From: Bacteroidota bacterium
GTDB lineage: Bacteria > Bacteroidota > Bacteroidia > B-17B0 > Aurantibacillaceae
Length of the DNA stretch: 64,000 nt
Direction of reading: 5' to 3'
Assembly (NCBI GenBank): GCA_017303905.1
Contig: JAFLBH010000002.1
Coordinates: 186,001 to 250,000, forward strand
Below the pieces are notes generated by a model, which saw only the letters and a list, made by a program, of their open reading frames with translations, did no database searches and had not been told where the DNA came from. The position numbers and the translations under genes were made by a program. Below, piece after piece: positions 5,014-27,422 of this stretch. Every line of letters begins with the position of its first letter. The stretch's first letter is position 1.

Positions 5014-5017
5014 AATC

Positions 5018-5500
5018 TTAATTTTTTGCTTTTGTTTTCTTGTAATTAAAAAATAAATCGTCGGAAGGAAGGGAATCTAAATTTTTGCAAACTAATTGCA
5101 TCACCTTTAAAAAGGTTTTTCTTTCACCTTCGGAAATATTTAAAAAAGCCTTCTCATCAATTGAATCAAAGGATTGTACTATTTTTTTGGTTTGCTTTTC
5201 GCCTTTCTTAGATAACTTAATGAAATGCTCGCGACGATCGGCCGGATTAGTAGTGCGTTCAATATAGCCGGCCTTACTTAAATAATCCAAAACTTTTACC
5301 ATGGCTGTTTTATCGATACGTAAATTATCACAAACCACTTGCTGACAACAGTTTTGATGATTGTATAAAAAGAAAAGCACCGAATAATAACGCTCCACAT
5401 CTAAATTATCTAAACTCTTTGACAAAGCGCCGTAATACAACTTCGATAAAATAAGCGCTCTGGTTCCAACAGGCAGTTCGTTATTTATCTCACTCTTCAT
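5018..5500 (-). CDS. MarR-family transcriptional regulator
   Basis: A 160-residue winged-helix protein. The recognition region is visible as CCQQVVCDNLRIDKTAMVKVLDYLSKAGYIERTTNPADRR, with the basic wing DRREHFIKLSKKGEKQ. Both ends are helical and typical of MarR dimerisation. It is the first gene of the efflux operon, 4 bases before the adaptor gene. By analogy with MarR/MexR-type systems it probably represses its own operon and is released by a ligand or by oxidation. The adjacent cysteines in NCCQQVVC are candidates for thiol sensing, but that is only an inference. Confidence 0.9.
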   Translation of the reverse strand: MKSEINNELPVGTRALILSKLYYGALSKSLDNLDVERYYSVLFFLYNHQNCCQQVVCDNLRIDKTAMVKVLDYLSKAGYIERTTNPADRREHFIKLSKKGEKQTKKIVQSFDSIDEKAFLNISEGERKTFLKVMQLVCKNLDSLPSDDLFFNYKKTKAKN

Positions 5501-5612
5501 AATAGTTGAATTTTAAAATAGTTGACAAATATAACTAATTCCGGACCAATCATAACCGATTTAACAATTTTATGATTTTTGCCGAATTCGCTTTTTCATA
5601 GACTATTTCTCG

Positions 5613-5620
5613 TATTTTTG
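5613..5620 (+). promoter_or_regulatory. Putative -7 promoter element for the PD40 gene
   Basis: TATTTTTG matches the Bacteroidota consensus TAnnTTTG and lies 15 bases before the ATG at 5636. No well-spaced TTTG/TTG -33 box was found, so the call rests on position and on the -7 match alone. In AT-rich DNA this 8-mer also arises by chance. Confidence 0.4.
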
Positions 5621-5635
5621 TAACCTATTTATTTT

Positions 5636-6673
5636 ATGAAACGTCTATTTTTTATCGCCATTCTATTCTCGGGATTAACAGGAATTAACGCGCAGGAAAA
5701 ACACCTAAAAAATCTACAAAAACTAACCTACGGCGGCGATAATGCTGAAGCCTATTTTTCGCCAAACGGAAAGATGGCCGCGTTTCAGAGTAATAATTCT
5801 AAATGGGGATTACAATGCGATCAGATTTTTGCCTTAGATATTGAAAAAGCAGCGAAAGACAGTACTTATAAACCACCAATGATAAGTACGGGCAAAGGCA
5901 GAACTACATGTAGTTATTACATGCCTAACGGAAAAGATATTTTGTATGCCTCTACACACAAAGCCAATGATTCTTGTCCGCCTGCCCCACAGATTAAAGG
6001 AAAATATTTGTGGGCCGTATACAAAGATTTTGATATTTACGTGGCCGATGAAAAAGGAAAGATAACCAAACAATTAACCAATTCGCCGGGATATGATGCC
6101 GAAGCAACCATTTCACCAAAAGGCGATAAAATAGTTTTCACCAGCGACCGCAGTGGCGATTTAGAATTATGGACCATGGATATTGATGGAAAAAATCAAA
6201 AACAAATTACAAAAGGATTAGGTTATGATGGCGGTGCTTTCTTTTCACCTGACGGAAAGAAATTAGTATTTCGCGCTTCTCGTCCGAAAACAGAAGAAGA
6301 AATTAAAGAATACAAAGATTTATTATCGCAACATTTGGTAGCTCCCACCAATATGGAGATATACACCTGTAATGTGGATGGCAGTGATTTAAAACAAGTG
6401 ACTTCTCTTGGTAAAGCAAATTGGGCGCCGTTTTACCACCCTTCCGGAAAGAAAATTATTTTTTCAAGTAATCATCACAGCGCAAGAGGTTACGACTTTC
6501 AATTATTTATGGTGAATGAAGACGGAACAGGATTAGAACAAATCACAAACGAGAGCATGTTCAATGCCTTCCCTATGTTTTCACCGGATGGTAAGAAATT
6601 AATTTTCTCTAGCAACAGAAATAACCACGGTACCCGTGATACCAATTTATTTATTGCTGATTGGGTGGATTAA
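5636..6673 (+). CDS. Exported PD40/TolB-like beta-propeller protein
   Basis: A 345-residue protein with a signal peptide (MKRLFFIAILFSGLTGINAQ) and repeated PD40 motifs: AYFSPNGKMAAF, ATISPKGDKIVFTSD, AFFSPDGKKLVF, FYHPSGKKIIFSSN and FPMFSPDGKKLIFSSN. These make a six-bladed TolB-like propeller expected in the periplasm or outer envelope. No peptidase, OmpA or kinase domain is attached, so it is probably a binding or scaffold protein. The cysteines in TTCSYYM and NDSCPPAP could form a disulfide. It is transcribed away from the efflux operon, and its 3' end overlaps the minus-strand DUF2892 gene by 23 bases. Confidence 0.85.
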   Translation: MKRLFFIAILFSGLTGINAQEKHLKNLQKLTYGGDNAEAYFSPNGKMAAFQSNNSKWGLQCDQIFALDIEKAAKDSTYKPPMISTGKGRTTCSYYMPNGKDILYASTHKANDSCPPAPQIKGKYLWAVYKDFDIYVADEKGKITKQLTNSPGYDAEATISPKGDKIVFTSDRSGDLELWTMDIDGKNQKQITKGLGYDGGAFFSPDGKKLVFRASRPKTEEEIKEYKDLLSQHLVAPTNMEIYTCNVDGSDLKQVTSLGKANWAPFYHPSGKKIIFSSNHHSARGYDFQLFMVNEDGTGLEQITNESMFNAFPMFSPDGKKLIFSSNRNNHGTRDTNLFIADWVD

Positions 6674-6851
6674 AATCCGTAGCGCATTTACCCGTTGTTA
6701 AACAGCGGTTTAGTAATCCGAAAATTAAAACAACCAGGCCTACTAAAGCCATTAACCATTCTTTGCGTTCGAAAGCAGTATAAATTATCCATGCTCCTAA
6801 AGGAGTTAAAATAATTCGGAATAATCCTATTTTTTGAATGAGTTTAAGCAT
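6651..6851 (-). CDS. DUF2892-type small membrane protein
   Basis: A 66-residue protein with the DUF2892 (YgaP transmembrane-like) pattern: an amphipathic N-terminus, two hydrophobic helices (about residues 10-26 and 31-48), and the tail LLNRCLTTGKCATDFN with two conserved cysteines. It is the last gene of the crtD-cruF-crtYcd unit, and its start overlaps the crtYcd stop by 8 bases. The function is not known; members are often found beside rhodanese or sulfur genes. Its place at the end of a carotenoid operon may be incidental. Confidence 0.75.
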   Translation of the reverse strand: MLKLIQKIGLFRIILTPLGAWIIYTAFERKEWLMALVGLVVLIFGLLNRCLTTGKCATDFNPPNQQ

Positions 6852-7536
6852 GGCTTTTATTCATATAACGGAATTTCTCGTAAAAGAAACACCATAAAAT
6901 GATCATGCTAAAGTTATAAAATAAATCCTCGAATGGAATGGTACCCATCCGAATGGATAAATTTTGGCTATCGTTGTAAATCAAAATGGGCCAAGATGTT
7001 AAAACTCCATTACAAATAGCAAACGGTAAAAGACAAACAGTAAAGGCCAGATAAAACAAATTAAGCTGTTTCCATTTCGCAAAATACGCCACGTAAACTA
7101 TGCATAAGATGGCCACTATTGAGTTAACAAGCGTATAAACCTTATTAAAACCATATACAAGCGTAATTAAGTTTACGGCAATAATGATTTTAGTAATTAA
7201 ATCGGTCACCGAATTAGTATAGTACTTTTTAAAGTAAACCCGAATACATTCATAAATAAAAACCGTTGAATACGGCACCGTAATAAAAAACAAACACTCT
7301 TCAATAGGCAAATTAAAAAAGTAAATACCACTCACAAATTCAGGATTAAACTGCCAGATTCCGCTTTTTGTAAATAGTATATCCCAAATAATAAAACCAA
7401 CACCAACAATTAGAATGGAAAGAAAGAGCGATTTCCACGTTTTATAAAAAGCTACTTTTTTATCAAAGCTTAAAATAAGCGGAAAGAAAATAACAGCCGC
7501 ATCCAATAACAAATATGTAAACTTCGGATTAATCAC
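6844..7536 (-). CDS. crtYcd: Lycopene cyclase, fused CrtYc/CrtYd type
   Basis: A 230-residue polytopic membrane protein made of two homologous halves. This is the small lycopene beta-cyclase type found in actinobacteria as separate CrtYc and CrtYd subunits and in Bacteroidota as a fusion. Each half carries the acidic signature: NLPIEECLFFITVP near residue 75 and IPFEDLFYNF near residue 200. About six or seven TM helices are visible. It cyclises psi-ends of lycopene to beta rings in the inner membrane. Both ends overlap neighbours by 8 bases (cruF upstream, DUF2892 downstream), so translation is coupled. Confidence 0.88.
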   Translation of the reverse strand: MINPKFTYLLLDAAVIFFPLILSFDKKVAFYKTWKSLFLSILIVGVGFIIWDILFTKSGIWQFNPEFVSGIYFFNLPIEECLFFITVPYSTVFIYECIRVYFKKYYTNSVTDLITKIIIAVNLITLVYGFNKVYTLVNSIVAILCIVYVAYFAKWKQLNLFYLAFTVCLLPFAICNGVLTSWPILIYNDSQNLSIRMGTIPFEDLFYNFSMIILWCFFYEKFRYMNKSHA

Positions 7537-8182
7537 GAAATACGTATAAACAGAATAAGAAAAACATGAATTGAGTTACATATAAAGTAAGAGCAGCTTG
7601 ATTCTCCTTTAATGGTAATTTCTTGCGTATGTAAAAGGAGAACAGCAACGAAATACAAAACCAAGCCACATAGTTAGTCATTGGAATATGATTGTCTTTC
7701 CAAAACCAAAATCCCATTATATGAACGCTTTGCTCAATCACCACATCCAATAGCACCATTAGTAATGAAGCGCCAATGACAGACACATAAAAGGATTGTT
7801 TCCGTAAAATCACATGGCAGGCATATAATAACATGATCCAATTTATGCCAATTACTAAAGGTACATTCAATAGTCTAGGGCCAAGATTGGTTCCGTAATA
7901 ATACTCTCCAAAAGGAAAACCGGTATAAACACCCAGTACTTCAATAAAAAAGGCCAATAATGCCACATTCAAAACAACCACATAATGGATTGGCTTTAAT
8001 TCAGCCTTCCAGAAAAGCATGATGGCGGAAAGCACCAGATTAAAAACCGATAGTTTTAAAAAGTAAACCGGGGCAAATAACATCCCAACTGCTCCGATAC
8101 AATGAAACAATATAATAATCGCCGATGGCAACCAGGGATCGTTTATTTTTTTTAAAACATTCAACTTAATTATGCTTATCAA
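7529..8182 (-). CDS. cruF: CruF-like carotenoid 1',2'-hydratase (PF04240 family)
   Basis: A 217-residue protein with about six TM helices. It has the carotenoid-biosynthesis family signature LGVYTGFPFGEYYYG followed by PLVIGINWIMLLYA and, later, LLDVVIEQSVHIMGFWFW. CruF and its archaeal relatives add water across the terminal double bond of the acyclic psi-end, giving a 1'-hydroxy group. The neighbouring crtD would then desaturate the 3',4' bond. The gene overlaps crtD by 17 bases and crtYcd by 8 bases. The family is firm. The hydratase activity is inferred from family and context. Confidence 0.82.
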   Translation of the reverse strand: MISIIKLNVLKKINDPWLPSAIIILFHCIGAVGMLFAPVYFLKLSVFNLVLSAIMLFWKAELKPIHYVVVLNVALLAFFIEVLGVYTGFPFGEYYYGTNLGPRLLNVPLVIGINWIMLLYACHVILRKQSFYVSVIGASLLMVLLDVVIEQSVHIMGFWFWKDNHIPMTNYVAWFCISLLFSFYIRKKLPLKENQAALTLYVTQFMFFLFCLYVFRD

Positions 8183-9632
8183 TTATCATATTACCCGCAA
8201 TTTTTGCCGAAAGTAAACACAAAGGAATTCCGCCACCCGGATGTACACTTCCTCCACAAAAATACAAACCTTTAATCTTACTGCTGTAATTAGCGTGTCT
8301 TAAAAAAGCAGAAAACTTATTATTGGAAGAATTGCCATACAAAGAACCGCCATAAGATGATGTATCTTTCTCGATGGTGAAAGGATCCCAAGTGGATTCC
8401 TCCTCTATGTAAGGAAGAATATCTGTTTTAAGAATACGGTTTATCTTCTTAATCACATTCAATTTCAATTCATCAAAATAACCTACCGGTAAATGCGATT
8501 TATTGTGAGGCGCGTTAATTAAGATAAACCAATTTTCACAACCCGGAGGTGCATCTTTTTTACACACTTTAGAACTGATATGGATATACACAGTTGGGTC
8601 GTGATAAGGTTTATCGGAATTGAAAAGCTGCTCGAATTCCTTCTCATAATTATCGCTAAACAAAATATTATGGACACCCAGCTCTGTGAATTCGCGTTTT
8701 ATTCCCCAATAAAAAATATAAGCAGAAGATGATTTTTCCTGGTTTAGTAATTTATGTGGTGTGTATTTTGAAGGAAGTAATTTCTGATAAACAACATGCA
8801 TATCGGCATCACTCAAAACGATATCACTTTCAAAAAGAGCACCATTCGCTTTTAGGCCTTTTACTTTTTCATTTTCAACAACAATTTCTTCCACCTTGTG
8901 GTTAAAATAAAACTCAACACCTTGTTCCTTTGCTAAACCATAAATGTACTTTGTGATGTCATGCATGCCTTCGTTTGGCATGAATGCGCCAATATTATAT
9001 TCCAAATGCGGAATAATGTTGAGTAAAGCTGGTGCCTTATAAGGATTGGAACCATTATAAGTCGCGTACCGATTGAATAATTGTACTGTTTTTGGATTTT
9101 TAAACCGCTTTGCATTCGCTTCATGCATTGTTTTACTTAATTGCAGTTTTTTAATATTCCCAATAGCCTTAATTGTTTTAATATTAAAAAAATTAAGCGG
9201 CTTGTGTAAAGATTGATGTAAAAACAAATCAGACGTGTAATGATATAACTGAGCACTATGCTCTAAATGCTGCAATACAGCTTCCCTACTCTCACCTAAA
9301 TGATGATGAATTTCATCGGCGAATGCATTTAAATCCGACTTCGCTTTTAAGCGCGTTCCGTCTTCATAAAAATAATGACAAACATCGTTCAGTTTTTGAA
9401 ATTTAAACTGTGTTTTGGTTTTGGTTAGTTCACCCAATTCATTTACCAAATGCGGCATGGTAAATAATGAAGGTCCTTTATCAAATCGATAGCCGCCAAG
9501 ATTCATTTCGCAAAGTTTGCCGCCGGGATGCGCTGCACTTTCGAATACGCTCACCTTAAATCCGGCCTTCGCCAAACGTACTGATGCCGCCAATCCTGCA
9601 ATCCCACCTCCGATGATATGAACCCGCTTCAA
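8166..9632 (-). CDS. crtD: CrtD-like 1-hydroxycarotenoid 3,4-desaturase
   Basis: A 488-residue FAD-dependent phytoene-desaturase-family protein. The dinucleotide-binding site is IIGGGIAGLAASVRLAKAG, followed by the FAD motif PGGKLCEMNLGGYRFDKGPS. The C-terminal signature is GLYFCGGSVHPGGGIPLCLLS. The GYRFDKGPSLFTMP region and its partnership with cruF fit CrtD (3,4-desaturation of 1-hydroxycarotenoids) better than CrtI, a copy of which is encoded divergently. It heads the minus-strand carotenoid unit and shares a 55-base divergent promoter region with crtI. An alternative is a second general carotene desaturase. Confidence 0.8.
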   Translation of the reverse strand: MKRVHIIGGGIAGLAASVRLAKAGFKVSVFESAAHPGGKLCEMNLGGYRFDKGPSLFTMPHLVNELGELTKTKTQFKFQKLNDVCHYFYEDGTRLKAKSDLNAFADEIHHHLGESREAVLQHLEHSAQLYHYTSDLFLHQSLHKPLNFFNIKTIKAIGNIKKLQLSKTMHEANAKRFKNPKTVQLFNRYATYNGSNPYKAPALLNIIPHLEYNIGAFMPNEGMHDITKYIYGLAKEQGVEFYFNHKVEEIVVENEKVKGLKANGALFESDIVLSDADMHVVYQKLLPSKYTPHKLLNQEKSSSAYIFYWGIKREFTELGVHNILFSDNYEKEFEQLFNSDKPYHDPTVYIHISSKVCKKDAPPGCENWFILINAPHNKSHLPVGYFDELKLNVIKKINRILKTDILPYIEEESTWDPFTIEKDTSSYGGSLYGNSSNNKFSAFLRHANYSSKIKGLYFCGGSVHPGGGIPLCLLSAKIAGNMIIDKHN

Positions 9633-9687
9633 AATTTTTACGTTTTTTAATAAACAATTGTAGTGAAAGTTTGTTTAACTTAGGCAA

Positions 9688-11157
9688 GTGAAGAAAAATA
9701 TTTCCATAATCGGTGCCGGATTCTCAGGTTTAGCGGCAGCATGTTATCTGGCAAAAGACGGATATAATGTTACTATTTACGAGAAACATTCACAAATTGG
9801 CGGACGTGCACGTACCATCGAAAAAGATGGTTTTTTGTTTGATATGGGTCCAAGCTGGTATTGGATGCCGGATGTTTTTGAGCGTTTTTTCGGAGATTTC
9901 GGAAAAAAGGTTTCTGATTATTACGAATTAAAAAGACTTTCACCGGGATATCGCATTTACTTTAATGATGAATATTTAGATGTTCCCGCTTCGTTGGAAG
10001 AATTATACGAAGTATTTGAAAAACACGAGAAAGGAAGTGCAGCTAAGCTCAAACAATTCTTAAAAGAAGCCGAATACAAATACAATGTTGGGATTCACGA
10101 ATTGGTTTATAAACCGGGCGTAAATATTTCTGAATTGATGGATGCCCGTTTGATAACGGGAATATTTAAACTGGATGTTTTCAAATCCATCCGAAAGCAC
10201 ATTGCTAAAAATTTCAAAAATCCAAAGCTGGTTCAATTGCTTGAATTTCCTGTTTTGTTTTTGGGCGCTTTGCCGCAAAACACACCCGCGCTTTACAGTT
10301 TAATGAATTATGCTGATTTAGTTCTTGGAACCTGGTATCCTATGGGCGGAATGGCCGTGGTACCGGAGGCTATGAAAAAACTAGCTCTTGAATTAGGCGT
10401 GAAGTTTGAAACGGGGGTTGACGTATCTGCAATAGAATTGAACGGAAACCTGGCAAAAAAATTAAAAGCGCAAAAGGAATATAACGGTTTTGATGCACTG
10501 ATTTCTTCAGCAGATTACCATTTTACCGATCAGGTATTACTTCCTCCTACTCACCGTCATTATACTAAAGACTATTGGGAATCACGGAAAATGGCACCAA
10601 GTTCTATTTTATTTTATGTGGGTATCAATAAAAAATTACCAAATCTTCTTCATCATAATTTGTTTTTCGATGAAGATTTTGAATTACACTCTCAGGAGAT
10701 TTACACAACTCCCAAATGGCCAAGTAAACCTTTATTGTATGTAAGTTGTACTTCCAAAACAGACCCTGTTACCGCGCCTGAAGGTTACGAAAACTTAACC
10801 ATCTTAATTCCGGTTGCCCCGGGGTTAAATGAAAGTGAGGAAATAAAAGAGAAGTATTTCAATTTGGCTATAGAACGTATTGAGAAAAAAATTGGTATGA
10901 GCTTTAAAGAAAACATCATCTTTAAACATATTTATTCGCCAAAAAATTTCATCAACGATTACAACTCTTTTAAAGGAAATGCCTACGGCTTAGCGAACAC
11001 TTTGCTTCAAACAGCGCATTTAAAACCTTCCATTAAGAGTAAAAAAGTGAAAAATCTCTTTTACACCGGACAATTAACTGTACCCGGTCCGGGTGTTCCG
11101 CCTTCTTTAATTTCAGGTAAACTGGTTGCCGATCAAATAAACAATTATTTCAAGTAA
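9688..11157 (+). CDS. crtI: Phytoene desaturase CrtI
   Basis: A 489-residue FAD-dependent desaturase. Rossmann motif IIGAGFSGLAAACYLAKDG, then IGGRARTIEKDGFLFDMGPSWYWMP, and the C-terminal signature NLFYTGQLTVPGPGVPPSL. CrtI converts phytoene to lycopene in several steps at the membrane. The start is GTG, as no ATG fits the conserved N-terminus. It is transcribed divergently from crtD across 55 bases and is followed directly by idi (the stop and next start are 3 bases apart). Both an IPP isomerase and the desaturase are thus made from one message. The phytoene synthase gene crtB is not in this window. Confidence 0.92.
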   Translation: MKKNISIIGAGFSGLAAACYLAKDGYNVTIYEKHSQIGGRARTIEKDGFLFDMGPSWYWMPDVFERFFGDFGKKVSDYYELKRLSPGYRIYFNDEYLDVPASLEELYEVFEKHEKGSAAKLKQFLKEAEYKYNVGIHELVYKPGVNISELMDARLITGIFKLDVFKSIRKHIAKNFKNPKLVQLLEFPVLFLGALPQNTPALYSLMNYADLVLGTWYPMGGMAVVPEAMKKLALELGVKFETGVDVSAIELNGNLAKKLKAQKEYNGFDALISSADYHFTDQVLLPPTHRHYTKDYWESRKMAPSSILFYVGINKKLPNLLHHNLFFDEDFELHSQEIYTTPKWPSKPLLYVSCTSKTDPVTAPEGYENLTILIPVAPGLNESEEIKEKYFNLAIERIEKKIGMSFKENIIFKHIYSPKNFINDYNSFKGNAYGLANTLLQTAHLKPSIKSKKVKNLFYTGQLTVPGPGVPPSLISGKLVADQINNYFK

Positions 11158-11160
11158 GTG

Positions 11161-11661
11161 ATGGAAGAAGTTGTGCTTGTAAATGAGAAGGACGAATCCA
11201 TTGGCCGGATGGAAAAAATAGAGGCGCATGAAAAAGGACTTCTGCACCGTGCCATTTCGGTATTCATTTTCAATGAAAAGGGAGAGATGCTTCTACAAAG
11301 ACGAGCTTTGCACAAATATCACAGCGCCGGTTTATGGACCAACACCTGTTGCAGTCATCCTCGTCCCGGTGAAGACTCTAAAATGGCTGCAGAGCGCCGG
11401 CTTTTTGAAGAAATGGGCATTAATACCTCTTTAATTCATAAGGGACAATTTATTTACAAAACTGAATTTAGCAACGGTCTCACTGAATTTGAACTGGATC
11501 ATGTTTTTACGGGAATTTATACTGAAAATCCCGAATTAAATCCCGAAGAAGCCGCCGATTTTTGCTGGAAATCCATTCCGGATATCAGGTCAGACGTAGA
11601 AAACTTCCCCAAAAACTATACTTCCTGGTTTAAAATAGCCCTCGAGAAGTTTTTTAGTTAA
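11161..11661 (+). CDS. idi: Isopentenyl-diphosphate delta-isomerase, type I
   Basis: A 166-residue Nudix-fold IPP isomerase that supplies dimethylallyl diphosphate for carotenoid and quinone precursors. The catalytic cysteine lies in LWTNTCCSHPRPGE, the metal-binding histidines in the same segment, and the Nudix-like helix in AAERRLFEEMGI. The catalytic glutamate region FELDHVFTG is also present. I place the start at the ATG at 11161; a GTG just before it (11158) is possible. It directly follows crtI, which supports a dedicated carotenoid role. Confidence 0.93.
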   Translation: MEEVVLVNEKDESIGRMEKIEAHEKGLLHRAISVFIFNEKGEMLLQRRALHKYHSAGLWTNTCCSHPRPGEDSKMAAERRLFEEMGINTSLIHKGQFIYKTEFSNGLTEFELDHVFTGIYTENPELNPEEAADFCWKSIPDIRSDVENFPKNYTSWFKIALEKFFS

Positions 11662-13009: not shown

Positions 13010-13099
13010 TTAGTCGAATGTACAAAAACAAACCTTTAGTCTCCTAATTATTTTCTTATATTGCATATACAAATCGGCCTCTCCCTTAAATTTATTGAA

Positions 13100-15262
13100 A
13101 TGAAAAAAATCATTGTCTTACTGTTTTTAGCAGTCAATCTCTTTGCGGCTCCTCCTGCCACTACGGTTGAATTTATTAAAGTAGATCAGTTTGGTTACAA
13201 GCCGAATGATGAAAAAATTGCAGTGATTGCGAATCCTATTACCGGTTACAACAACACAACACCATTCTCGCCAGGTAGTACTTATCAGGTGCGTGAATGG
13301 ACAACCAATAACGTAGTTTTCACAGGATCTATTACGCCATGGAATGCAGGAGCAACACAAACGCAATCGGGTGATAAAGTCTGGCACTTTAATTTCAGTT
13401 CTTTGACAACTCCCGGGAGTTATTACATTTTTGATGTAACAAACAATGTTGGCTCGTATCGATTTGAAATTAGCACATGCGTTTATAACAATGTTATGAA
13501 AGCTGCGGTACGTATGTTTTATTACCAACGTTGCGGCATGGCAAAAGCTTTTCCTTTTGCTGATACAGGATTTGTAGATGGAGTTTGTCACAAAGGAACA
13601 CAACAGGATACTGACTGTCGGCTTTATAATAATACCAATGTATCAACCTCGAAGGATTTATCCGGTGGATGGCACGATGCTGGTGATTACAACAAGTATG
13701 TGAATTTCGCTTACTCTCCATTAATTGATATGTTACTGGCTTATGAATATAATCCTACTGTATTCACCGACGACTATAATTTACCGGAATCAGGAAATGG
13801 TATTCCAGATTTATTAGATGAAGCGAAATATGAATTGGATTGGTTCATTAAAATGCAAGGAAACGACAGCTCCCTTATTTCTGTTATTGGCGGCGGTTCT
13901 GCCAGTCCGAATTCAGCAGATGTCGCGTTCCGACGTTACGGTCCGCCTACCACGGCAGCCAGTTTAACAGGCGCAGCAGCTTTTGCCTTAGCCGCCATTC
14001 AATTTAACGCCATTGGCCAAACTACATATGCAGCAGCACTTCAATCTCGCGCCATAAAGGCATGGCACTGGGCAAACAATCATCCCAATATAACATTTTA
14101 TAATGCCGGAACATTAGCTGCAGGAGAACAACAAACAAGCGCTTATGACACTGATATGCGTAAGTTGGCCGGTGCGATTTATTTGTATGCGCTTACCGGA
14201 AATAATTTTTACAGAACTTATGTAGACGCAAATGTTCCCAATGCACATTTAATAATGTGGACCTATGCCTACCCTTTTGAAGCTGTTGAACAAGATGCCC
14301 TACTTTACTATACCAAAACGCCGGGAGCAACAACAGCTATCCGCAATCAAATAATAAATTCTTATTCGGTAAGTATGCAAACAAATAATGCTGATAATTT
14401 ACCGGCACATATAAATAAAACTGATGCTTACAGAGCCTGGATGGCGAATAACAATTACACCTGGAACAGCAATCAAACTAAGAGTAAACAAGGTATTATG
14501 TTCCTATTAATGAATCAATATAATTTAAATTCTGCCAATTCTACGAATTACACGAACGCAGCTTCCGGATTTGTACATTACATGCACGGTGTAAATCCAA
14601 ATACTAAAGTTTATTTAAGCAATATGAAAAAATACGGAGCTGAAAACTACGTAAAACAATTCTATCATAGCTGGTTTAAAGACGGAAGTGCTTTATGGGA
14701 TGAAGAAGGAGTTTCCACCTATGGTCCTGCTCCCGGTTATATTCCCGGTGGACCCAATCCAAGCTATTCACTTGCTTCTTGTTGTCCGAGTACATGTGGA
14801 AGTGCAGCGAATAATGCACTTTGCTTAACGAATGTAACTCCACCCATGGGACAACCCATTCAAAAGTCGTATAAAGATTTTAATAATGATTGGCCTGTTA
14901 ATAGTTGGGAGATTACTGAAGCCGGCATTTATACGAATGCCGCTTACGTTAGAATGTTATCCAAATTTATCAGTACAGGCTGCAGTACAAGCACCGAAAT
15001 TAAAACTAATCATTTGGAATTACACAGTGGTGCAATGCTATACCCTAATCCTACGGAAAACAAATTGTTTATCCAATTGAGTAATAAAGCTACAGGTTTT
15101 AGTTGCAGAATATATTCGGTAAACGGACAGCTCTTAATGGAGGATAAAGACAATAATATCGGCACAATCGAACTGGTTATCGAAAAACTATCAGCCGGCA
15201 TCTATTTTGCTGAAGTAAGCTATAATAACACTAAGCAAACTATTAAATTTGTAAAAGAATAA
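13100..15262 (+). CDS. T9SS-secreted glycoside hydrolase family 9 enzyme
   Basis: A 720-residue protein counted from the ATG at 13100; an upstream TTG at 13061 would spoil the signal peptide MKKIIVLLFLAVNLFAAPP. Order of domains: a CelD-type N-terminal Ig-like domain (residues about 20-130), a GH9 catalytic domain, and a C-terminal T9SS sorting domain (LYPNPTENKLFIQLS to the end). The GH9 base aspartates are seen in GGWHDAGDYNKY (about residue 190), and the catalytic acid in WEITEAGIYTNA (about residue 605). GH9 enzymes cleave beta-1,4-glucans or related glycans; the real substrate is not known. It is the first gene of a three-gene unit ending in a SpoIIE phosphatase. Confidence 0.9.
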   Translation: MKKIIVLLFLAVNLFAAPPATTVEFIKVDQFGYKPNDEKIAVIANPITGYNNTTPFSPGSTYQVREWTTNNVVFTGSITPWNAGATQTQSGDKVWHFNFSSLTTPGSYYIFDVTNNVGSYRFEISTCVYNNVMKAAVRMFYYQRCGMAKAFPFADTGFVDGVCHKGTQQDTDCRLYNNTNVSTSKDLSGGWHDAGDYNKYVNFAYSPLIDMLLAYEYNPTVFTDDYNLPESGNGIPDLLDEAKYELDWFIKMQGNDSSLISVIGGGSASPNSADVAFRRYGPPTTAASLTGAAAFALAAIQFNAIGQTTYAAALQSRAIKAWHWANNHPNITFYNAGTLAAGEQQTSAYDTDMRKLAGAIYLYALTGNNFYRTYVDANVPNAHLIMWTYAYPFEAVEQDALLYYTKTPGATTAIRNQIINSYSVSMQTNNADNLPAHINKTDAYRAWMANNNYTWNSNQTKSKQGIMFLLMNQYNLNSANSTNYTNAASGFVHYMHGVNPNTKVYLSNMKKYGAENYVKQFYHSWFKDGSALWDEEGVSTYGPAPGYIPGGPNPSYSLASCCPSTCGSAANNALCLTNVTPPMGQPIQKSYKDFNNDWPVNSWEITEAGIYTNAAYVRMLSKFISTGCSTSTEIKTNHLELHSGAMLYPNPTENKLFIQLSNKATGFSCRIYSVNGQLLMEDKDNNIGTIELVIEKLSAGIYFAEVSYNNTKQTIKFVKE

Positions 15263-15269
15263 AAATCAT

Positions 15270-16844
15270 ATGAAATTCTCACTTAATTCAATCGCTCTTT
15301 TAGCTGGTATTCAGCTTTCTATTGCACAACAAAATTCTCCTTATACAGTTAAGGTTTCACAGGAGTTTGAATCTCCTAAACGCCATGTGGTAATGAATCC
15401 GGTTCCTTACGGTGATTTAGGCATCATTCAGGTTAATGCGAAAAAAGTAGAATCTTTTTCATTTCAATTATTTAACAACGATTTGAAGTTTTTAAAAGAA
15501 AACACCGTTAGTACGGAGGGAAAATTAAATGAACATGTAAGTTATAATCGATTCCAGAAGTTCAATAACAAAACTTACTTAATGGTAAGAGATGTTTTTA
15601 AAGACACAGAAACTGAAGGGATTTCCGCACTTGAGTTCTCGCCAGAAAAATTGGATTTTGTAGGGCAATCGCGCAATTTATTTAAATCATCCGATAAGGT
15701 ACGTTCATTTAGTTATCGTTTTTACATGAGTGAAGATGAAAAAAACTTCATGTACACTTATGAGTTGGTAAGTCGTGAAAAGCGTGATAAACTAAATAAG
15801 GATATTGTGGGCATGCACATTTTTGATGAAAACCTGGGAAAAATATGGGGTGCGGAAGTTGAAATGCCATATACCGAAGCAAAAATGGACAACTGGGGTT
15901 ATACATTGGGTGATGACGGAACTGTTTATTTACTGGCCAGAGTATATAACGATGACACACAAAAAGAAAGTATTGATGGTTTACCTAACTATCATTTTGA
16001 AGTTATTATGTATAATGCCGATAATGTTAAACCGAAAATAATAAAAGTAAACCTGGATAATAATTTTCCGAAAGAGGCGTACATCTATGAAAATGAAAAA
16101 CATGAGATTTTTGTGAGTGGCTTTTATTCTAAAGGTGCCAACAAACCAATCGATGGGGCCTATATGGTAACGATAGATACTAAACAGGGCATTTCAATGA
16201 AACCCGAAGGCGGATATTATGAATTTCCTTCCGAATTAATTAAATCATTCATGAGCGACAGAGAAAAGAAGCGTGCAGAAAAGAAAGAACAAAAAGAATC
16301 TGATCTAGGAATCGATTTTTTAAAAATTCGTGCTATTTATAAAATGAAAAACGGATCAACGACCATCGTTTCTGAACAATACCATGTAGTAACGCGTACA
16401 TATTATAATGGAAGAACTACACAAACAACGTATGATACCTATGCAGAGGATGTGTTTGTTATGAACATCGACGCGATGGGCAAAATGAAATGGGTAAAGA
16501 AAATTCCGAAAGCTCAACACAGTAATGATGCTGGCGGACCACAACTATCTATACAATCTTATGCAGTCGATAATGACATTCATGTTTTTTATGTCGACAA
16601 TTTGAAAAATTTAAATTTGCCTGTGAATGAAGCGCCTAAATGGCATGAGCAAGGTCGCGGTGGATTTTTAACCGGCGTAAAAATTGATGAGAACGGCAAT
16701 CAGAGTAAATATAATTTAGGAGAGGTAGAAAAATACGAGACCAATTTTTATATCCGTGAATTCATAGACGGAGGCAGAAATAACATTATAAGCAGTGAAC
16801 GTAAACACAAAATGAACAGCCTTTACTCCATTGAGATAAAATAA
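15270..16844 (+). CDS. Exported protein of unknown function, propeller-like
   Basis: A 524-residue protein with a signal peptide (NSIALLAGIQLSIAQQ). I do not recognise a family. The sequence is a run of beta-strand-rich segments with occasional Asp/Gly turns (NWGYTLGDDGTVYLLAR, EVIMYNADNVKPK, VFVMNIDAMGKMKWVKKI), which suggests a beta-propeller. A charged helix (DREKKRAEKKEQKESD) interrupts it near residue 335. There is no T9SS sorting domain. It sits 7 bases after the GH9 gene and 3 bases before the GldL-like/SpoIIE gene, so the three are very likely one operon. Confidence 0.65.
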   Translation: MKFSLNSIALLAGIQLSIAQQNSPYTVKVSQEFESPKRHVVMNPVPYGDLGIIQVNAKKVESFSFQLFNNDLKFLKENTVSTEGKLNEHVSYNRFQKFNNKTYLMVRDVFKDTETEGISALEFSPEKLDFVGQSRNLFKSSDKVRSFSYRFYMSEDEKNFMYTYELVSREKRDKLNKDIVGMHIFDENLGKIWGAEVEMPYTEAKMDNWGYTLGDDGTVYLLARVYNDDTQKESIDGLPNYHFEVIMYNADNVKPKIIKVNLDNNFPKEAYIYENEKHEIFVSGFYSKGANKPIDGAYMVTIDTKQGISMKPEGGYYEFPSELIKSFMSDREKKRAEKKEQKESDLGIDFLKIRAIYKMKNGSTTIVSEQYHVVTRTYYNGRTTQTTYDTYAEDVFVMNIDAMGKMKWVKKIPKAQHSNDAGGPQLSIQSYAVDNDIHVFYVDNLKNLNLPVNEAPKWHEQGRGGFLTGVKIDENGNQSKYNLGEVEKYETNFYIREFIDGGRNNIISSERKHKMNSLYSIEIK

Positions 16845-16847
16845 TGT

Positions 16848-18989
16848 ATGAATCAAAGTATTAAAGCTAATACATTAATTAAGGTATTAATATGGATTAC
16901 TGTTATCAGTAGTTTATTTGGGCAGTTATTTAAATTAATGCATTGGCCGGGCGCCAGTATATTAATGATGCTTGGTACCTTTGTACTTTGCTTTTTATAC
17001 ATCCCTTTGTATTTTATAGAGGCAAAAAAAGGTTTAGGAACAATTAAATCGAAATTGATCTTATTTGCTCAGAGCTTGGTTATATTTCTATTTGGACTAG
17101 GCTTTTTATTTAAAATCATGCATTGGCCGGGTTCGGGACTTTTATATGATTTAAATTACAGTATACTTTTCTTTGTTGTTACTCCCTATTCCATTTATCA
17201 CTTAATTAAATCCTACAAGAAAAGTATTTTAACTACACACGCGGTTTTTCTTGCAATATACTTTTTTGCGTTCAGCATGAGTTCACTTTTTATGTCGGGT
17301 TCAGGTAAAATAAACGTTAATCCTATTTATGTACAAGGAAATAACATGGAAAATGCCCTGCAATCGGCAAACGCACGTAATATTAACTTATATAATACAA
17401 TAAAAGATGCAGGTGTAAATGATTCTTTGTTCATCTCCATAAAAACTAAGAAATTAAAAGAATTATGCGACACTACTTCCGGATATATTCAGGACTTAAA
17501 ATCTGAGCTAATAAGCAAGTCAGCAGTAATGACGAAAGCTGACGCAGATTCACTGCCTTTTATATATATTAAGAGTCCTAATGAAATGGATATCCCAAAT
17601 TTAATATTGTTCGAAACGGGTGATCCAAAAACCTATAAATACTCAGCGTATCGATTAAAAAAGGTAATAAATAGTTTTAGAGACTCGCTTATTAGCCTGG
17701 TGAGTGAAGAAAAACGCATGGTAATTAGTGAAGGGATAAATTTATCGACTGAAAATTATGAAAGTACAGATGGAGAAATTATTCCGTGGGAAGTCGAAAA
17801 CTTTTCGCATACCCCGCTCTTGTCTGCAATTTATACCTTACTTTCCATACAGTATGAAATTAAAAATGCTGAGTACCAAATATTAATTGACATTCTGAAT
17901 TCAGAAAAACAAAACTTAAGCAGTAGCGTACAAAATAAAATATCTGAATTGAATTCGAATTATACAGAAAACAAAAAGCAAGAAGAGATTAGCAAATTAC
18001 AAAGTGAAAATGAAAAGCGTGAAGAAATGATTAGTCAGCGCGAAGAAGAACTAAATACACAAAAGCAAACCATTCTTGTATTTGTATTAATCACCTTGTT
18101 ATTCCTGGTAATGGTATTTTTTGTTGTAAGAAGTAACTATTTAAGAAAGCAGGCCAATAAAACTTTGTTGAGTCAGAAACAAATAATTGAAAAGCAAAAA
18201 GAAGAGGCAGAGCAACAAAAGCATGTAATTGAAGAAAAGCAAAAGGAAATAATAGATAGTATCTCATACGCAAAACGTTTACAAGAAGCCATTTTACCTC
18301 CTTCCAAATTCATTGATGAAAACGTACCTAATAATTTTGTTATATATCTTCCGAAGGATATTGTGGCCGGTGACTTTTATTGGGCTGAAAAAATTAATGA
18401 GCTTTTCTTTATTGCCGCGGCCGACAGCACCGGACATGGCGTACCGGGAGCGATGGTGAGCGTGGTTTGCAGTAATGCGCTTAATCGTACCGTAAAAGAG
18501 TTTAATATTACTGATACTGGAAAAATACTAGATAAAACCCGTGAGTTAGTTTTAGAGACTTTTTCAAAAAGTAGTAGTGATGTTAAAGATGGTATGGATA
18601 TTTCCTTGTTGTGCCTGGATATAAAGAATAAATTGATTCATTGGAGTGGTGCCAATAATCCACTTTGGTATTTGAGCAACAATGAACTCAACGAAATTAA
18701 AGCCGATAAGCAACCCGTTGGAAAAAGCGATCACGCGAAATCTTTTACAAGTCACCAATTAAGCTATAAAGAAGGAGATATTTTTTACTTATTTACAGAT
18801 GGACTTGCGGATCAATTTGGCGGACCAAAAGGAAAAAAATTCAAGTACAAACAATTTGAAGAACTACTAGTTTCTATTAGAAATAAATCCATGAACGAAC
18901 AAGCTCATGAAATCAAACGTAATTTCATGGATTGGAAAGGCGGACTAGAGCAAGTGGATGATGTTTGTGTGATTGGTATAAAATTATAA
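16848..18989 (+). CDS. GldL-like membrane domain fused to SpoIIE-type phosphatase
   Basis: A 713-residue protein. Its N-terminal third is a four-to-five-TM membrane module with two copies of the GldL-like signature: LFKLMHWPGA near residue 28 and LFKIMHWPGS near residue 87. A periplasmic or cytoplasmic region of about 250 residues follows, then a coiled coil (about 370-405), another TM helix (about 407-430) and a second coiled coil with the linker EIIDSISYAKRLQEAILP. The SpoIIE/PP2C domain starts with DIVAGDFYW (about 505) and carries the metal-site motifs DSTGHGVPGA, DGMDISLL and EQVDDV. It should dephosphorylate a Ser/Thr protein in the cytoplasm in response to a membrane signal. The substrate is unknown. 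Confidence 0.88.
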   Translation: MNQSIKANTLIKVLIWITVISSLFGQLFKLMHWPGASILMMLGTFVLCFLYIPLYFIEAKKGLGTIKSKLILFAQSLVIFLFGLGFLFKIMHWPGSGLLYDLNYSILFFVVTPYSIYHLIKSYKKSILTTHAVFLAIYFFAFSMSSLFMSGSGKINVNPIYVQGNNMENALQSANARNINLYNTIKDAGVNDSLFISIKTKKLKELCDTTSGYIQDLKSELISKSAVMTKADADSLPFIYIKSPNEMDIPNLILFETGDPKTYKYSAYRLKKVINSFRDSLISLVSEEKRMVISEGINLSTENYESTDGEIIPWEVENFSHTPLLSAIYTLLSIQYEIKNAEYQILIDILNSEKQNLSSSVQNKISELNSNYTENKKQEEISKLQSENEKREEMISQREEELNTQKQTILVFVLITLLFLVMVFFVVRSNYLRKQANKTLLSQKQIIEKQKEEAEQQKHVIEEKQKEIIDSISYAKRLQEAILPPSKFIDENVPNNFVIYLPKDIVAGDFYWAEKINELFFIAAADSTGHGVPGAMVSVVCSNALNRTVKEFNITDTGKILDKTRELVLETFSKSSSDVKDGMDISLLCLDIKNKLIHWSGANNPLWYLSNNELNEIKADKQPVGKSDHAKSFTSHQLSYKEGDIFYLFTDGLADQFGGPKGKKFKYKQFEELLVSIRNKSMNEQAHEIKRNFMDWKGGLEQVDDVCVIGIKL

Positions 18990-23925: not shown

Positions 23926-24813
23926 TTATTTACTCTTCTTTTTATAGTTATCATACATATCATGTACAATTCCATCCGATAAACCAATTTGAGGAACGAA
24001 CACTTTTTCAATATCGGCTGTTTTCATCACCGTTAAGAAAATTTTAGCGGCGGGGATAATTACGTCGGCACGATCGGGTTTAAGACCTAATCTTTCAACA
24101 CGTTCTTCATAGGTGTATGAATTAAGCATGTCATATAAGTCTTTGAGTTTATCGTAATTCAGATGCTTAGTTTCCTTTTTGTTGATCATTTTAAACATCT
24201 TATTGATATTTCCGCCGGAGCCAATCGCATATAACGGATGAATACCAACTGTGCTTCGCTTCAACCAAGCCTTCATTTCCTCCCACTCTTCTTTATTTAC
24301 TTTATCCAACAACATCCTTACTGTACCAATGTTAAAAGATTTGGCGGCTATTACTTTTTGATTGAAATACAAGGTGAGCTCTGTACTTCCACCACCCACG
24401 TCGATGTATAAATAAGCAAACTTCGGATTTAATATTTGTTCGATATGATTCGAAAAAACCAAGGCAGCTTCCAATTTACCATCAATAATCTCCACATTGA
24501 GTCCTGATTCTTGTTTAGCACGGGAAATTATTTCTTGTCCGTTTGCAGCATCACGCATAGCACTGGTAGCAACGGCTCTTACACCATCAACCTGATAAGC
24601 CTTTATTAATTCGTTAAAACCCTTTAATGAGGTGATTAAACGCTCTTCTTTTGCTGAAGAAATTTTTCCTTTTAAAAATACATCTTCTCCTAAACGAATA
24701 GGCATACGGATTAATTCTTCTTTATGGAAATGAGGTTTACCTTCCAGCTCATACACCCTGCAAAACAAGAGTCGAATAGCGTTACTTCCAATATCTACTG
24801 CTGCAAAAACCAT
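23926..24813 (-). CDS. ppx: Ppx/GppA-family exopolyphosphatase
   Basis: A 295-residue enzyme of the ASKHA-fold Ppx/GppA family, limited to the catalytic core with no C-terminal HD-like domain. Motifs are VDIGSNAIRLLFCRV (phosphate-1), VATSAMRDAANG, the catalytic glutamate region IIDGKLEAALVF, LYIDVGGGSTELTLY (phosphate-2) and IGSGGNINKM. It hydrolyses polyphosphate from the end, or possibly pppGpp. Its start overlaps the ppk1 stop (TAATG), and cdaA follows after 3 bases. The core-only length fits other Bacteroidota Ppx proteins. Confidence 0.92.
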   Translation of the reverse strand: MVFAAVDIGSNAIRLLFCRVYELEGKPHFHKEELIRMPIRLGEDVFLKGKISSAKEERLITSLKGFNELIKAYQVDGVRAVATSAMRDAANGQEIISRAKQESGLNVEIIDGKLEAALVFSNHIEQILNPKFAYLYIDVGGGSTELTLYFNQKVIAAKSFNIGTVRMLLDKVNKEEWEEMKAWLKRSTVGIHPLYAIGSGGNINKMFKMINKKETKHLNYDKLKDLYDMLNSYTYEERVERLGLKPDRADVIIPAAKIFLTVMKTADIEKVFVPQIGLSDGIVHDMYDNYKKKSK

Positions 24814-26918
24814 TATTTAATATTACTGAGTTCTACTTTTGATTTACTATATGTTTTATTCGATTCTTTGATGTATTCATACACTTCATCCTGCACCCTT
24901 ATTTTGCGTTCTCCGGGTTGGGGCTTCTTGTAAATATTCTCCTGAAAAGGATCTAAGATTCTTACTTTGGTATTTCCCGCTAACTGAATATTGATGATAT
25001 CCTTAATCTGCTTTCTTATTTCCTTATCATATATTGGCACCGCTACTTCACTTCTGCTGTCCAAATTACGACTCATCCAATCAGCCGATGTGAGATATAT
25101 TTTTTCTTCACCGCCATTATGAAAAATAAAAACGCGGGCATGTTCCAAATATTTATCCACGATACTATAAGCCACAATGTTTTTACTATACCCATCAATA
25201 CCGGTAACAAGAGAGCATGCGCCGCGTACAATCAGTTGAACAGGCACACCCGCGTTGGAAGCCTCATACAATTTCACAATCATTTCACGGTCAACCAAGC
25301 TATTCATTTTTAAAATAATGCCTGATTTTTTTCCCGCTTTAGCGTTTGCAATTTCCTTGTTTATTAATGAAACAAAAGTCTTACGCATGTAAAATGGCGC
25401 AACTGCCAAATGTTTAAATTGTCCGACTTTAAAATTATCAACGTAAAAATCAAAAACCTTATTTACTTCATCGGTGATTAATTTATTGGCAGTAAGTAAT
25501 GAGAAATCGGTATAAATTCTTGCCGTTTTTTCGTTGAAGTTACCGGTTCCTACATGCGCCACCTTTACTTCTTTACCTTTAATGCGTGAGGTAATTAAAA
25601 AAAGCTTAGAGTGTACTTTTAATCCGGTTACCCCGTAAATAACATGCGCTCCTTCTTCTTGCAATTTATTAGCCCAATAAATATTATTCTCCTCATCAAA
25701 ACGCGCTTGCAATTCAACCAACACCACAACTTTCTTTCCGTTCTTTATGGCATTAATGAGTGCATTGGCAATTTTGGAAGAATCTGCCACTCGGTATAAA
25801 GTAATTTTAATCGACTCAACGCGTGGATCAATAGACGCTTCCCTCAATAAATTAATAATGTGATTAAATGTATGGTAAGGATAATGCAATAAAATATCCT
25901 TATGAAAAAGTGTGTCCAGAATTGTTTTATTGGTATTCTGCAACAAACCGTGTTCTAAAGGCGGTTGATGCTTGTAAATTAATTTCTTTTCGCCAAGGGT
26001 TGGGAAATTGATGAAATCCTTAAAGTTATGGTATCGTCCACCAGGAATAGCATTATCTTTTTTATCCATTCCAAGTTTCTTCATAATGAACGAAAGCATA
26101 TCGTTTGGCATGGCCGCATCATATACAAATCGAACCGGCAGTCCCTTCTTTCTATCCTTAATACCCTTCGATATTTTTTCGAGCATGCTTTTACTTACGT
26201 CATTATCAATATCGAGCTCGGCATCGCGCGTTAATTTTATATTATATGATTCAACTGATCTGAAACCAAATACCTCAAAAATTTCATTTACACAATAACG
26301 GATAATATCGTCAAGAAGAATAATGTATTTCTTTTCATCTTCTGTTGGTAATACAACAAAACGATTGAGAATTTTAGAAGGAATCTCGATAAGGGCAAAT
26401 TTGTTCTTTTTCTTTTCCGCAATGGAAATCAGCTTCACGAACAAGTAGCCTGACTTATCTTTCATATACGGAAAACTCTTGGTATCATCCACCATGATGG
26501 GAAACAAAGCAGGCAATACATCCGAATGAAAATAATTTTTTATATAGGCAATTTGATTTTCATTTAACTGCCGCTCATTAATCATGAAAATATTATTGTC
26601 GGCCAATTCCTTTAAAATCTCCGTATAAATTTCCTCGAAACGATTTTGCTGCTCAATTACTTTTCGTTGAAGTTTTGGTAATAGTTCTTTAGGATCTTCG
26701 CCATACAAGGAAACCGCTTTACGTCCCAATTTACTTAAACGTCTAACGGTGGCTACCCTAACCCTATAAAACTCGTCACGATTATTACTGAAAATACCAA
26801 GAAATTTAATTCTTTCAATCAGCGGTGTCGTTTTATCGGCGGCCTCTTGCAAAACTCTTTCATTAAATGAAAGCCAGCTGATTTCACGATTGATATATGG
26901 GAAGCTCTTTTTTGCCAT
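24813..26918 (-). CDS. ppk1: Polyphosphate kinase 1
   Basis: A 701-residue PPK1 with the usual N-terminal, head and two phospholipase-D-like catalytic domains. The N-terminus YINREISWLSFNERVLQEA is typical. Catalytic region: ITLYRVADSSKIANALI, VELQARFDEENNI, the phospho-accepting histidine in GLKVHSKLFLI, and GTGNFNEKTARIYTDFSLLT. The second histidine lies in LEHARVFIFHNGGEEKIYLTSADWMSRNLDSR. The enzyme makes inorganic polyphosphate from ATP. It lies 3 bases after the SixA-like gene and overlaps ppx by one base. Confidence 0.96.
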   Translation of the reverse strand: MAKKSFPYINREISWLSFNERVLQEAADKTTPLIERIKFLGIFSNNRDEFYRVRVATVRRLSKLGRKAVSLYGEDPKELLPKLQRKVIEQQNRFEEIYTEILKELADNNIFMINERQLNENQIAYIKNYFHSDVLPALFPIMVDDTKSFPYMKDKSGYLFVKLISIAEKKKNKFALIEIPSKILNRFVVLPTEDEKKYIILLDDIIRYCVNEIFEVFGFRSVESYNIKLTRDAELDIDNDVSKSMLEKISKGIKDRKKGLPVRFVYDAAMPNDMLSFIMKKLGMDKKDNAIPGGRYHNFKDFINFPTLGEKKLIYKHQPPLEHGLLQNTNKTILDTLFHKDILLHYPYHTFNHIINLLREASIDPRVESIKITLYRVADSSKIANALINAIKNGKKVVVLVELQARFDEENNIYWANKLQEEGAHVIYGVTGLKVHSKLFLITSRIKGKEVKVAHVGTGNFNEKTARIYTDFSLLTANKLITDEVNKVFDFYVDNFKVGQFKHLAVAPFYMRKTFVSLINKEIANAKAGKKSGIILKMNSLVDREMIVKLYEASNAGVPVQLIVRGACSLVTGIDGYSKNIVAYSIVDKYLEHARVFIFHNGGEEKIYLTSADWMSRNLDSRSEVAVPIYDKEIRKQIKDIINIQLAGNTKVRILDPFQENIYKKPQPGERKIRVQDEVYEYIKESNKTYSKSKVELSNIK

Positions 26919-26921
26919 AAA

Positions 26922-27422
26922 TTATTTAAAACTTTTCGGGAATTTATTTAACAACAGTTGCCCATGCTTTTTATCTGCCACTTCCTTCCAATTCTCATAA
27001 GGAAAACCAATTTTTATAATTCCGCAGGTTGGTACGTTTTCAAATAACAAATCTTTATTCAGTTCATTCGTCAGATTTGTAATTGCCGGATTATGTCCGA
27101 ATAACATAACACGGTTATTTTTTTTATCGAGTTTAGAAATTATCTCTAAATAATCTTGCATGGTGCTTTCATACAAATCGCCGTTCACCATTACCTGAGC
27201 CTCAGGAATACCAAATGTTCTGGCAAAAATATACGCGGTATTAATGGCACGCGTTGCAGGGCTACTCAGTAATAAATCAGGTAGAGTAAATTCACTTTTA
27301 TACCATTGACTTAACTGATAGGCGTCTGCGTATCCTCTGTCGTTCAAATGACGGTCGATATCTTTAATCGCTTCATTCGCCCAGTCCGACTTAGCATGGC
27401 GTATTAAAATCAGTTCCTTCAT
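26922..27422 (-). CDS. SixA-type histidine phosphatase
   Basis: A 166-residue member of the histidine phosphatase superfamily. The catalytic RHG-type motif is LILIRHAKSDWANE (here RHA, as in SixA), the second arginine lies in LLSSPATRAINTAYIF, and the second histidine in VMLFGHNPAITNLTN. SixA removes phosphate from phospho-histidine in HPt domains, though many family members act on small phosphoesters. It is the first gene of the operon, 3 bases before ppk1. A role in phospho-histidine or polyphosphate chemistry is plausible but unproven. Confidence 0.88.
   Translation of the reverse strand: MKELILIRHAKSDWANEAIKDIDRHLNDRGYADAYQLSQWYKSEFTLPDLLLSSPATRAINTAYIFARTFGIPEAQVMVNGDLYESTMQDYLEIISKLDKKNNRVMLFGHNPAITNLTNELNKDLLFENVPTCGIIKIGFPYENWKEVADKKHGQLLLNKFPKSFK

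Follow-up and report, generated by a model that had tools for sequence, protein, structure and literature searches.

Ion-driven motors of 5:2 stoichiometry are known as machines that perform work, and the GldL-GldM motor has this ratio, with five GldL to two GldM (GldL5GldM2). In the stretch of Bacteroidota DNA analyzed here (64,000 nt; hereafter the window), one gene encodes GldL-type and GldM-type parts in a single chain with a SpoIIE-type phosphatase. This raises the question of what the membrane part does for the enzyme: it might respond to membrane energy, report on the cell's own T9SS motor, simply anchor the phosphatase, or serve as a receptor in its own right.

Domain architecture of the 713-aa protein

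The gene and its parts are as follows (TM, transmembrane helix).

16848..18989, + strand: whole gene, 713 aa from an ATG start; two GldL hairpins, GldM-like TM, GldM D1, TM, coiled coil and PP2C (ORF, Pfam, AlphaFold)
16872..17027, + strand: GldL-type hairpin 1, residues 9-60, two TM helices (Pfam GldL_N, AlphaFold helices, hairpin profile)
16929..16952, + strand: motif 1, FKLMHWPG, residues 28-35, predicted periplasmic turn
17043..17210, + strand: GldL-type hairpin 2, residues 66-121, two TM helices (Pfam, hairpin profile, AlphaFold helices)
17109..17132, + strand: motif 2, FKIMHWPG, residues 88-95
17226..17300, + strand: fifth TM helix (TM5), residues 127-151, at the GldM TM position, with His131 where GldM has Arg9
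17310..17912, + strand: GldM/PorM domain 1 (D1), predicted periplasmic, residues 155-355 (PF12081, E 5.6e-16; Z 17.6-21.4 to PorM/GldM structures)
17922..18293, + strand: predicted long helix, residues 359-482, which leaves D1, crosses the membrane as the sixth TM and continues in the coiled coil, partly of low confidence (AlphaFold)
18072-18128, + strand: sixth TM, residues 409-427, within the long helix
18333..18983, + strand: SiaA/SpoIIE-like PP2C phosphatase domain, residues 496-712 (PF07228, 64 bits; SiaA-PP2C, Z 31.5; phmmer E 1e-31; conserved Asp residues)

The initial annotation had noticed two copies of LFKxMHWPG about 60 residues apart. The pair is present: FKxMHWPG starts at residues 28 and 88, a spacing of exactly 60. 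Even one copy was absent from all shuffled versions of the protein (0/20,000), which together with the profile and fold matches rules out a chance origin of the motif. The suggested likeness to GldL, for which an HMM comparison of the N-terminal part had been proposed, reflects real homology, as Pfam GldL_N (PF22827) matches in two stretches at 29.1 bits (cut-off 24). The fusion to a SpoIIE phosphatase was likewise borne out, with PF07228 matching the C-terminal residues 521-712 at 64 bits. What had been overlooked is that residues 155-355 are GldM domain 1: Pfam GldM_1st (PF12081) covers residues 165-351 (59.6 bits, E 5.6e-16, cut-off 25), and a PDB sequence search matched residues 143-354 to GldM/PorM and, weakly, residues 22-46 to GldL (E 0.26). 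In place of the 'second TM helix' then described, the protein has about six membrane helices.

An AlphaFold2 model, based on an alignment of 14 orthologues (mean pLDDT 77, pTM 0.40, linker of low confidence), has helices at residues 9-31, 36-60, 66-91, 96-121 and 127-151, a helical domain at 159-352, a long helix at 359-482 and a PP2C fold. Fold comparison of residues 155-355 returned PorM 7cmg (Z 21.4), GldM 7sau (21.0), PorLM 7sat (20.6), 7sb2 (19.7) and 6ys8 (17.6); identity to GldM in the structural superposition is low, about 20%. The predicted C-terminal fold superposes on SiaA-PP2C (6k4e) with Z 31.5. Hydropathy and the K/R-rich loops fit a predicted topology in which the HWPG turns and D1 are periplasmic and the phosphatase is cytoplasmic. 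TIGR03513 (GldL) scores 23.7 bits, below its cut-off of 68.3, and TIGR03517 (GldM) scores 48.7 bits, below its cut-off of 180, with the match stopping at profile position 228 of 524; the D2-D4 shaft (about 520 aa in GldM) is missing. We regard the domain composition and the homology to the named families as virtually certain.

Loss of the proton-handling residues

Glu49 (E49) in TM2 of GldL is strictly conserved and required (PMC8986121). In our hairpin alignment this position is Glu in 14/14 canonical GldL and acidic in 0/264 distinct fused hairpins, a collection which also establishes that the HWPG motif is not limited to this protein. Both window hairpins have Leu at the E49 position, and no column of the alignment holds a conserved replacement acid in either membrane helix of the fused hairpins. 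The equivalents of GldL K27 and H30 are kept in 254/263 and 251/263 fused hairpins, respectively, and in 248/261 a Pro stands close to the TM2 end in place of the Phe or Leu of GldL. Arg9, with which the GldM TM begins, is present in 16/17 GldM and essentially absent from the fusions, which have His, hydrophobic or polar residues there; among phosphatase fusions it is His in 11/15. Furthermore, the wheel and axle parts form one chain (a single ORF) in the window protein, whereas 5:2 rotary motors have separate chains. With E49 and Arg9 lost and the wheel fused to the axle, proton-driven rotation is unlikely, and on sequence grounds the window protein is unlikely to be a proton-driven motor. 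The contrast at E49 and the loss of Arg9 also speak against the earlier idea that proton flow is read by a GldL-type mechanism. A plain GldL relative is ruled out by the presence of D1 and the absence of E49.

The retained residues bear on an alternative in which the hairpin/TM5 core is a live energy sensor, responding to the proton gradient via K27, H30 and the TM5 His so that the phosphatase reports membrane energy. Conservation of K27 and H30 equivalents in >95% of hairpins and of His in the 11/15 phosphatase fusions is consistent with this, as is the finding that the PMF alters the periplasmic conformation of GldM in the real motor (PMC8986121); but with E49 missing in every hairpin, no acid in its place, Arg9 lost and wheel and axle in one chain, we consider it quite unlikely. 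Some proton- or voltage-linked behaviour may exist, given the K27 and H30 equivalents and the near-constant TM5 His of the phosphatase branch. The initial annotation had proposed that membrane energy or motor state is linked to protein dephosphorylation; the coupling of a membrane module to a phosphatase stands, while the energy and motor part is reduced to a minority explanation.

A family of single-chain fusions with fixed hairpin numbers

A scan of named genomes yielded 79 Bacteroidota loci (one record labelled Chlorobiota), which were sorted with local profiles. Residues 1-361 have a match in 74/87 genomes of the same order, canonical GldM and fused relatives included. A phylum-wide scan gave 21/296 matches, and since most of these are canonical GldL, the fused family appears patchy outside the window's order. 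Single-chain GldL-GldM fusions are numerous in Bacteroidota. Type A is a tandem pair, in which a gene for an N-terminal domain of ~88 aa (N-domain), three GldL hairpins and a GldM-type TM/D1 region (~477 aa) is followed by a gene for two hairpins and TM/D1 (~315 aa). The hairpin count is exactly 3+2 in 22/22 tandem pairs and each protein has a C-terminal GldM-like region, the D1 region lying above the profile threshold in many, not all, of the 22 pairs. Type B (~380-430 aa) has the N-domain, two hairpins and a D1-like tail. Type C, the window type (LLM-SpoIIE, ~700-790 aa), has the order hairpins-D1-SpoIIE and is without the N-domain. A further variant carries SpoIIE on hairpins without D1; it is encoded next to genes of type A or B and divergently from them (L064, L084 and L085).

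Pfam confirmed GldL_N and GldM_1st on example relatives. A second AlphaFold model, of the type A three-hairpin protein of L053 (tandem pair at 4554-5990 and 6019-6975), matched nine GldM/PorM entries at Z 18.0-23.4, with the best unrelated chain at 9.6, and its last TM aligns to the GldM TM in 7sax and 6ys8. In a D1 tree that is limited by long branches and one mislabelled row (L027) and fixes neither the root nor the number of fusion origins, the LLM-SpoIIE sequences group together. The tandem relatives have five hairpins to two shafts (22/22), which equals the GldL5GldM2 ratio; the window protein has 2:1. The 3+2 count suggests that the tandem relatives may form a fused 5:2 ring. Own-genome partners that would complete such a ring for the window protein were considered and rejected, the only other hairpin proteins found there being a 382-aa N-LLM protein and canonical GldL.

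Several single loci depart from these arrangements. The LLM-SpoIIE copy at L027 (G055:C84) is broken by a TAA stop. Proteins of ~145 aa at L092:5947-6381 and L119:5983-6423 consist of two GldL-like hairpins with no GldM domain. At L028:1294-3326 (G057:C318) a three-hairpin and D1 protein occurs without N-domain or phosphatase; the next gene encodes a 260-aa multi-TM protein in which one HLPGAN hairpin can be recognised, and the two may be a further kind of pair. The window's own genome has a second full-length GldM paralogue, a 565-aa frame at L013:556-2232 (around G000:C1:156306-156947), away from the gldL-gldM locus; its canonical GldL match is single and does not lie at this paralogue.

Relatives beside PadR genes

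Fusion of the module to other outputs, which the initial annotation had proposed to count, does occur: relatives carry the N-domain beside PadR instead of a phosphatase. A PadR gene lies <=200 nt upstream at 19/22 type A and 25/29 type B loci (44/51 non-phosphatase) and at 0/6 type C loci, PadR identity being confirmed by Pfam on four loci. Three helices are predicted for the N-domain, and its DH-x-CC motif, DH(I/V)CC, is invariant. It found no match in Pfam, for which reason we do not class it as HAAS, and a weak one to the NCBIfam permease-prefix (E 0.025); it is possibly a divergent HAAS-type domain (e.g. L090:5722-5970), and perhaps redox- or metal-linked. The window's own genome has the N-domain on a further protein as well, of 288 aa and encoded immediately next to PadR (65% identity over 87 aa). 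In the HAAS-PadR dyads described earlier, the HAAS domain of the sensor signals to PadR (PMC11237479). Since PadR and the N-domain are found in types A and B and neither in type C, the outputs of the membrane module appear to be swapped. This fits interchangeable outputs, from the N-domain to PadR or through a phosphatase at the other end.

The phosphatase and its candidate pathway

The closest solved PP2C to the phosphatase domain is SiaA, with a phmmer match (E 1e-31) that covers the PP2C and the preceding helix; the NCBIfam SiaA model gives 169 bits, far below its cut-off of 700. The PP2C Asp residues, which we take to be the metal-site acids of the family, are invariant in 14 relatives. 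The window's own genome (3.95 Mb) has 59 SpoIIE/PP2C matches, and 8 SiaC-family proteins score over cut-off versus one STAS protein; a STAS protein as substrate was therefore set aside. From family and genome content we infer a SiaC-family protein as the probable substrate. In Pseudomonas, SiaA and SiaB set the phosphorylation of SiaC (PMC7647112).

This genome has a very large SiaA-type phosphatase network. Its other hairpin fusion sits in a run PadR - 288 aa - 206 aa - N-LLM - SiaB x2 - SiaC, convergent with two SiaA-type phosphatases (L136:6-7926, G000:C1:604006-611926; sister species L068:3956-12018). Between the two species the PadR proteins agree at 100%, although two adjoining genes reach only 35-53% identity. 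In the sequence stretches retrieved, SpoIIE genes are found close to 3/22 type A, 4/29 type B and 0/14 canonical gldLM loci, a comparison across differing genomes that is only suggestive.

A passive anchor, in which the membrane part merely localises and dimerises a constitutive phosphatase regulated elsewhere, would agree with the complete, conserved phosphatase domain and with the several other front ends, such as TPR repeats, on which SpoIIE is found in this lineage. We judge it unlikely: the module recurs beside PadR, where its output is another, and its hairpin numbers are fixed; moreover, D1 and the HWPG turns stay conserved in distant relatives, beyond an anchor's needs.

Neighbouring genes

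Two genes precede the fusion, with intergenic gaps of 7 and 3 nt along the run.

13061..15262, + strand: GH9 cellulase with a T9SS sorting tail (Por_Secre_tail), adjacent here and in the sister species only
15270..16844, + strand: 524-aa gene of no family, adjoining here and in the sister species only

The initial annotation had placed the gene in one unit with a T9SS cargo enzyme. The cellulase is there, but the arrangement occurs only here and in the closest relative (the sister species, 89% identical over residues 1-361), and an operon logic with the cellulase was rejected for this reason. The other loci retrieved gave no homologue of the 524-aa gene, and neither siaB nor siaC was detected adjoining the 713-aa gene. 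Elsewhere in the window, by ORF reading only, lie a carotenoid-type cluster (7529-11661; two CrtI-like oxidoreductases, a multi-TM protein and an isopentenyl-diphosphate isomerase-like gene) and a polyphosphate-type run (23926-27422; Ppx/GppA-like, polyphosphate kinase-like and SixA-like genes).

These surroundings also bear on whether LLM-SpoIIE joins native GldL/GldM, via a hairpin or D1, and reports T9SS assembly or load. In favour of this, the protein has the same fold elements as GldL and GldM D1, and the genome has a canonical gldL-gldM locus plus the extra GldM. However, E49 and R9, which bind the motor helices together, are not kept, GldM identity is about 20%, no T9SS genes lie beside the orthologous loci beyond the closest relative, and the tandem relatives with their 3+2 hairpins (22/22) look self-sufficient. 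We found nothing that links the window protein to the native T9SS motor or to the state of that motor, and consider this earlier proposal improbable.

A proposed motor-derived receptor

By the profile, alignment and model evidence, one chain combines two GldL-type hairpins, GldM D1 and a PP2C with intact metal-site acids, and has lost the proton-harvesting residues. We think it rather likely that the window protein is a motor-derived, proton-dead envelope receptor controlling a SiaA-type PP2C; its sensor role, ligand, substrate and assembly we infer. In the predicted scheme, the hairpins and TM5 would pack like the GldL/GldM membrane core, which could not rotate, wheel and axle being one chain. 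The periplasmic D1 would dimerise and read a periplasmic or envelope cue. The change would pass down the long helix (359-482) through the membrane into the coiled coil, which would turn the PP2C dimer on or off, and the phosphatase would dephosphorylate a SiaC-family protein and thereby counteract a SiaB-type kinase. The relatives would use this membrane module for another output, an N-terminal helical domain beside the PadR transcription factor. For the family as a whole, we speculate, at somewhat less than even confidence, that a T9SS rotary motor has been turned into a family of locked, proton-dead receptors, in which the 3+2 pair forms the 5:2 ring as a 1:1 heterodimer, with at least two outputs, PadR and SiaA-type.

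If true, a rotary motor has become a receptor, with wheel and axle kept and fused and the proton-handling residues dropped, and the family would allow a clear test of the residues on which being a motor depends; with their 3+2 hairpins, the tandem relatives make the stoichiometry directly testable. The large SpoIIE/SiaC networks found in some Bacteroidota would also gain a first candidate input in the window protein. GldL_N or GldM_1st matches alone are no marker of T9SS motor genes. In the open-access library searched we found neither a published GldL, GldM and SpoIIE combination nor a relevant report of GldL with PadR.

Comparison with known systems

With the GldL-GldM (PorL-PorM) motor the window protein shares the FKxxHWPG hairpin, the GldM TM position and the D1 fold, and the tandem relatives add an LLALNVS-like TM and the 5:2 hairpin count. 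In contrast to that motor, it is one chain without E49, R9 or the D2-D4 shaft to the outer membrane, and a phosphatase has been added. SiaA of the Pseudomonas aeruginosa SiaABC system shares the PP2C domain, the preceding helix and a presumed SiaC-type target, but the window protein's sensor part is GldL/GldM-derived. As in the RsbU/RssB/SpoIIE-type phosphatases, a coiled-coil linker would feed a PP2C dimer, a switch shown for RsbU (PMC12143880), whereas the sensor is of another type and the substrate is probably another (SiaC, not STAS). Finally, the relatives resemble the HAAS-PadR dyads (PMC11237479) in that their multi-TM sensor carries a three-helix domain at its N-terminus and has a stand-alone PadR gene as its neighbour; the window protein differs in lacking the N-domain and its orthologues in lacking PadR, and none of the fusions that the consulted passages of that report name has a GldL/GldM membrane part.
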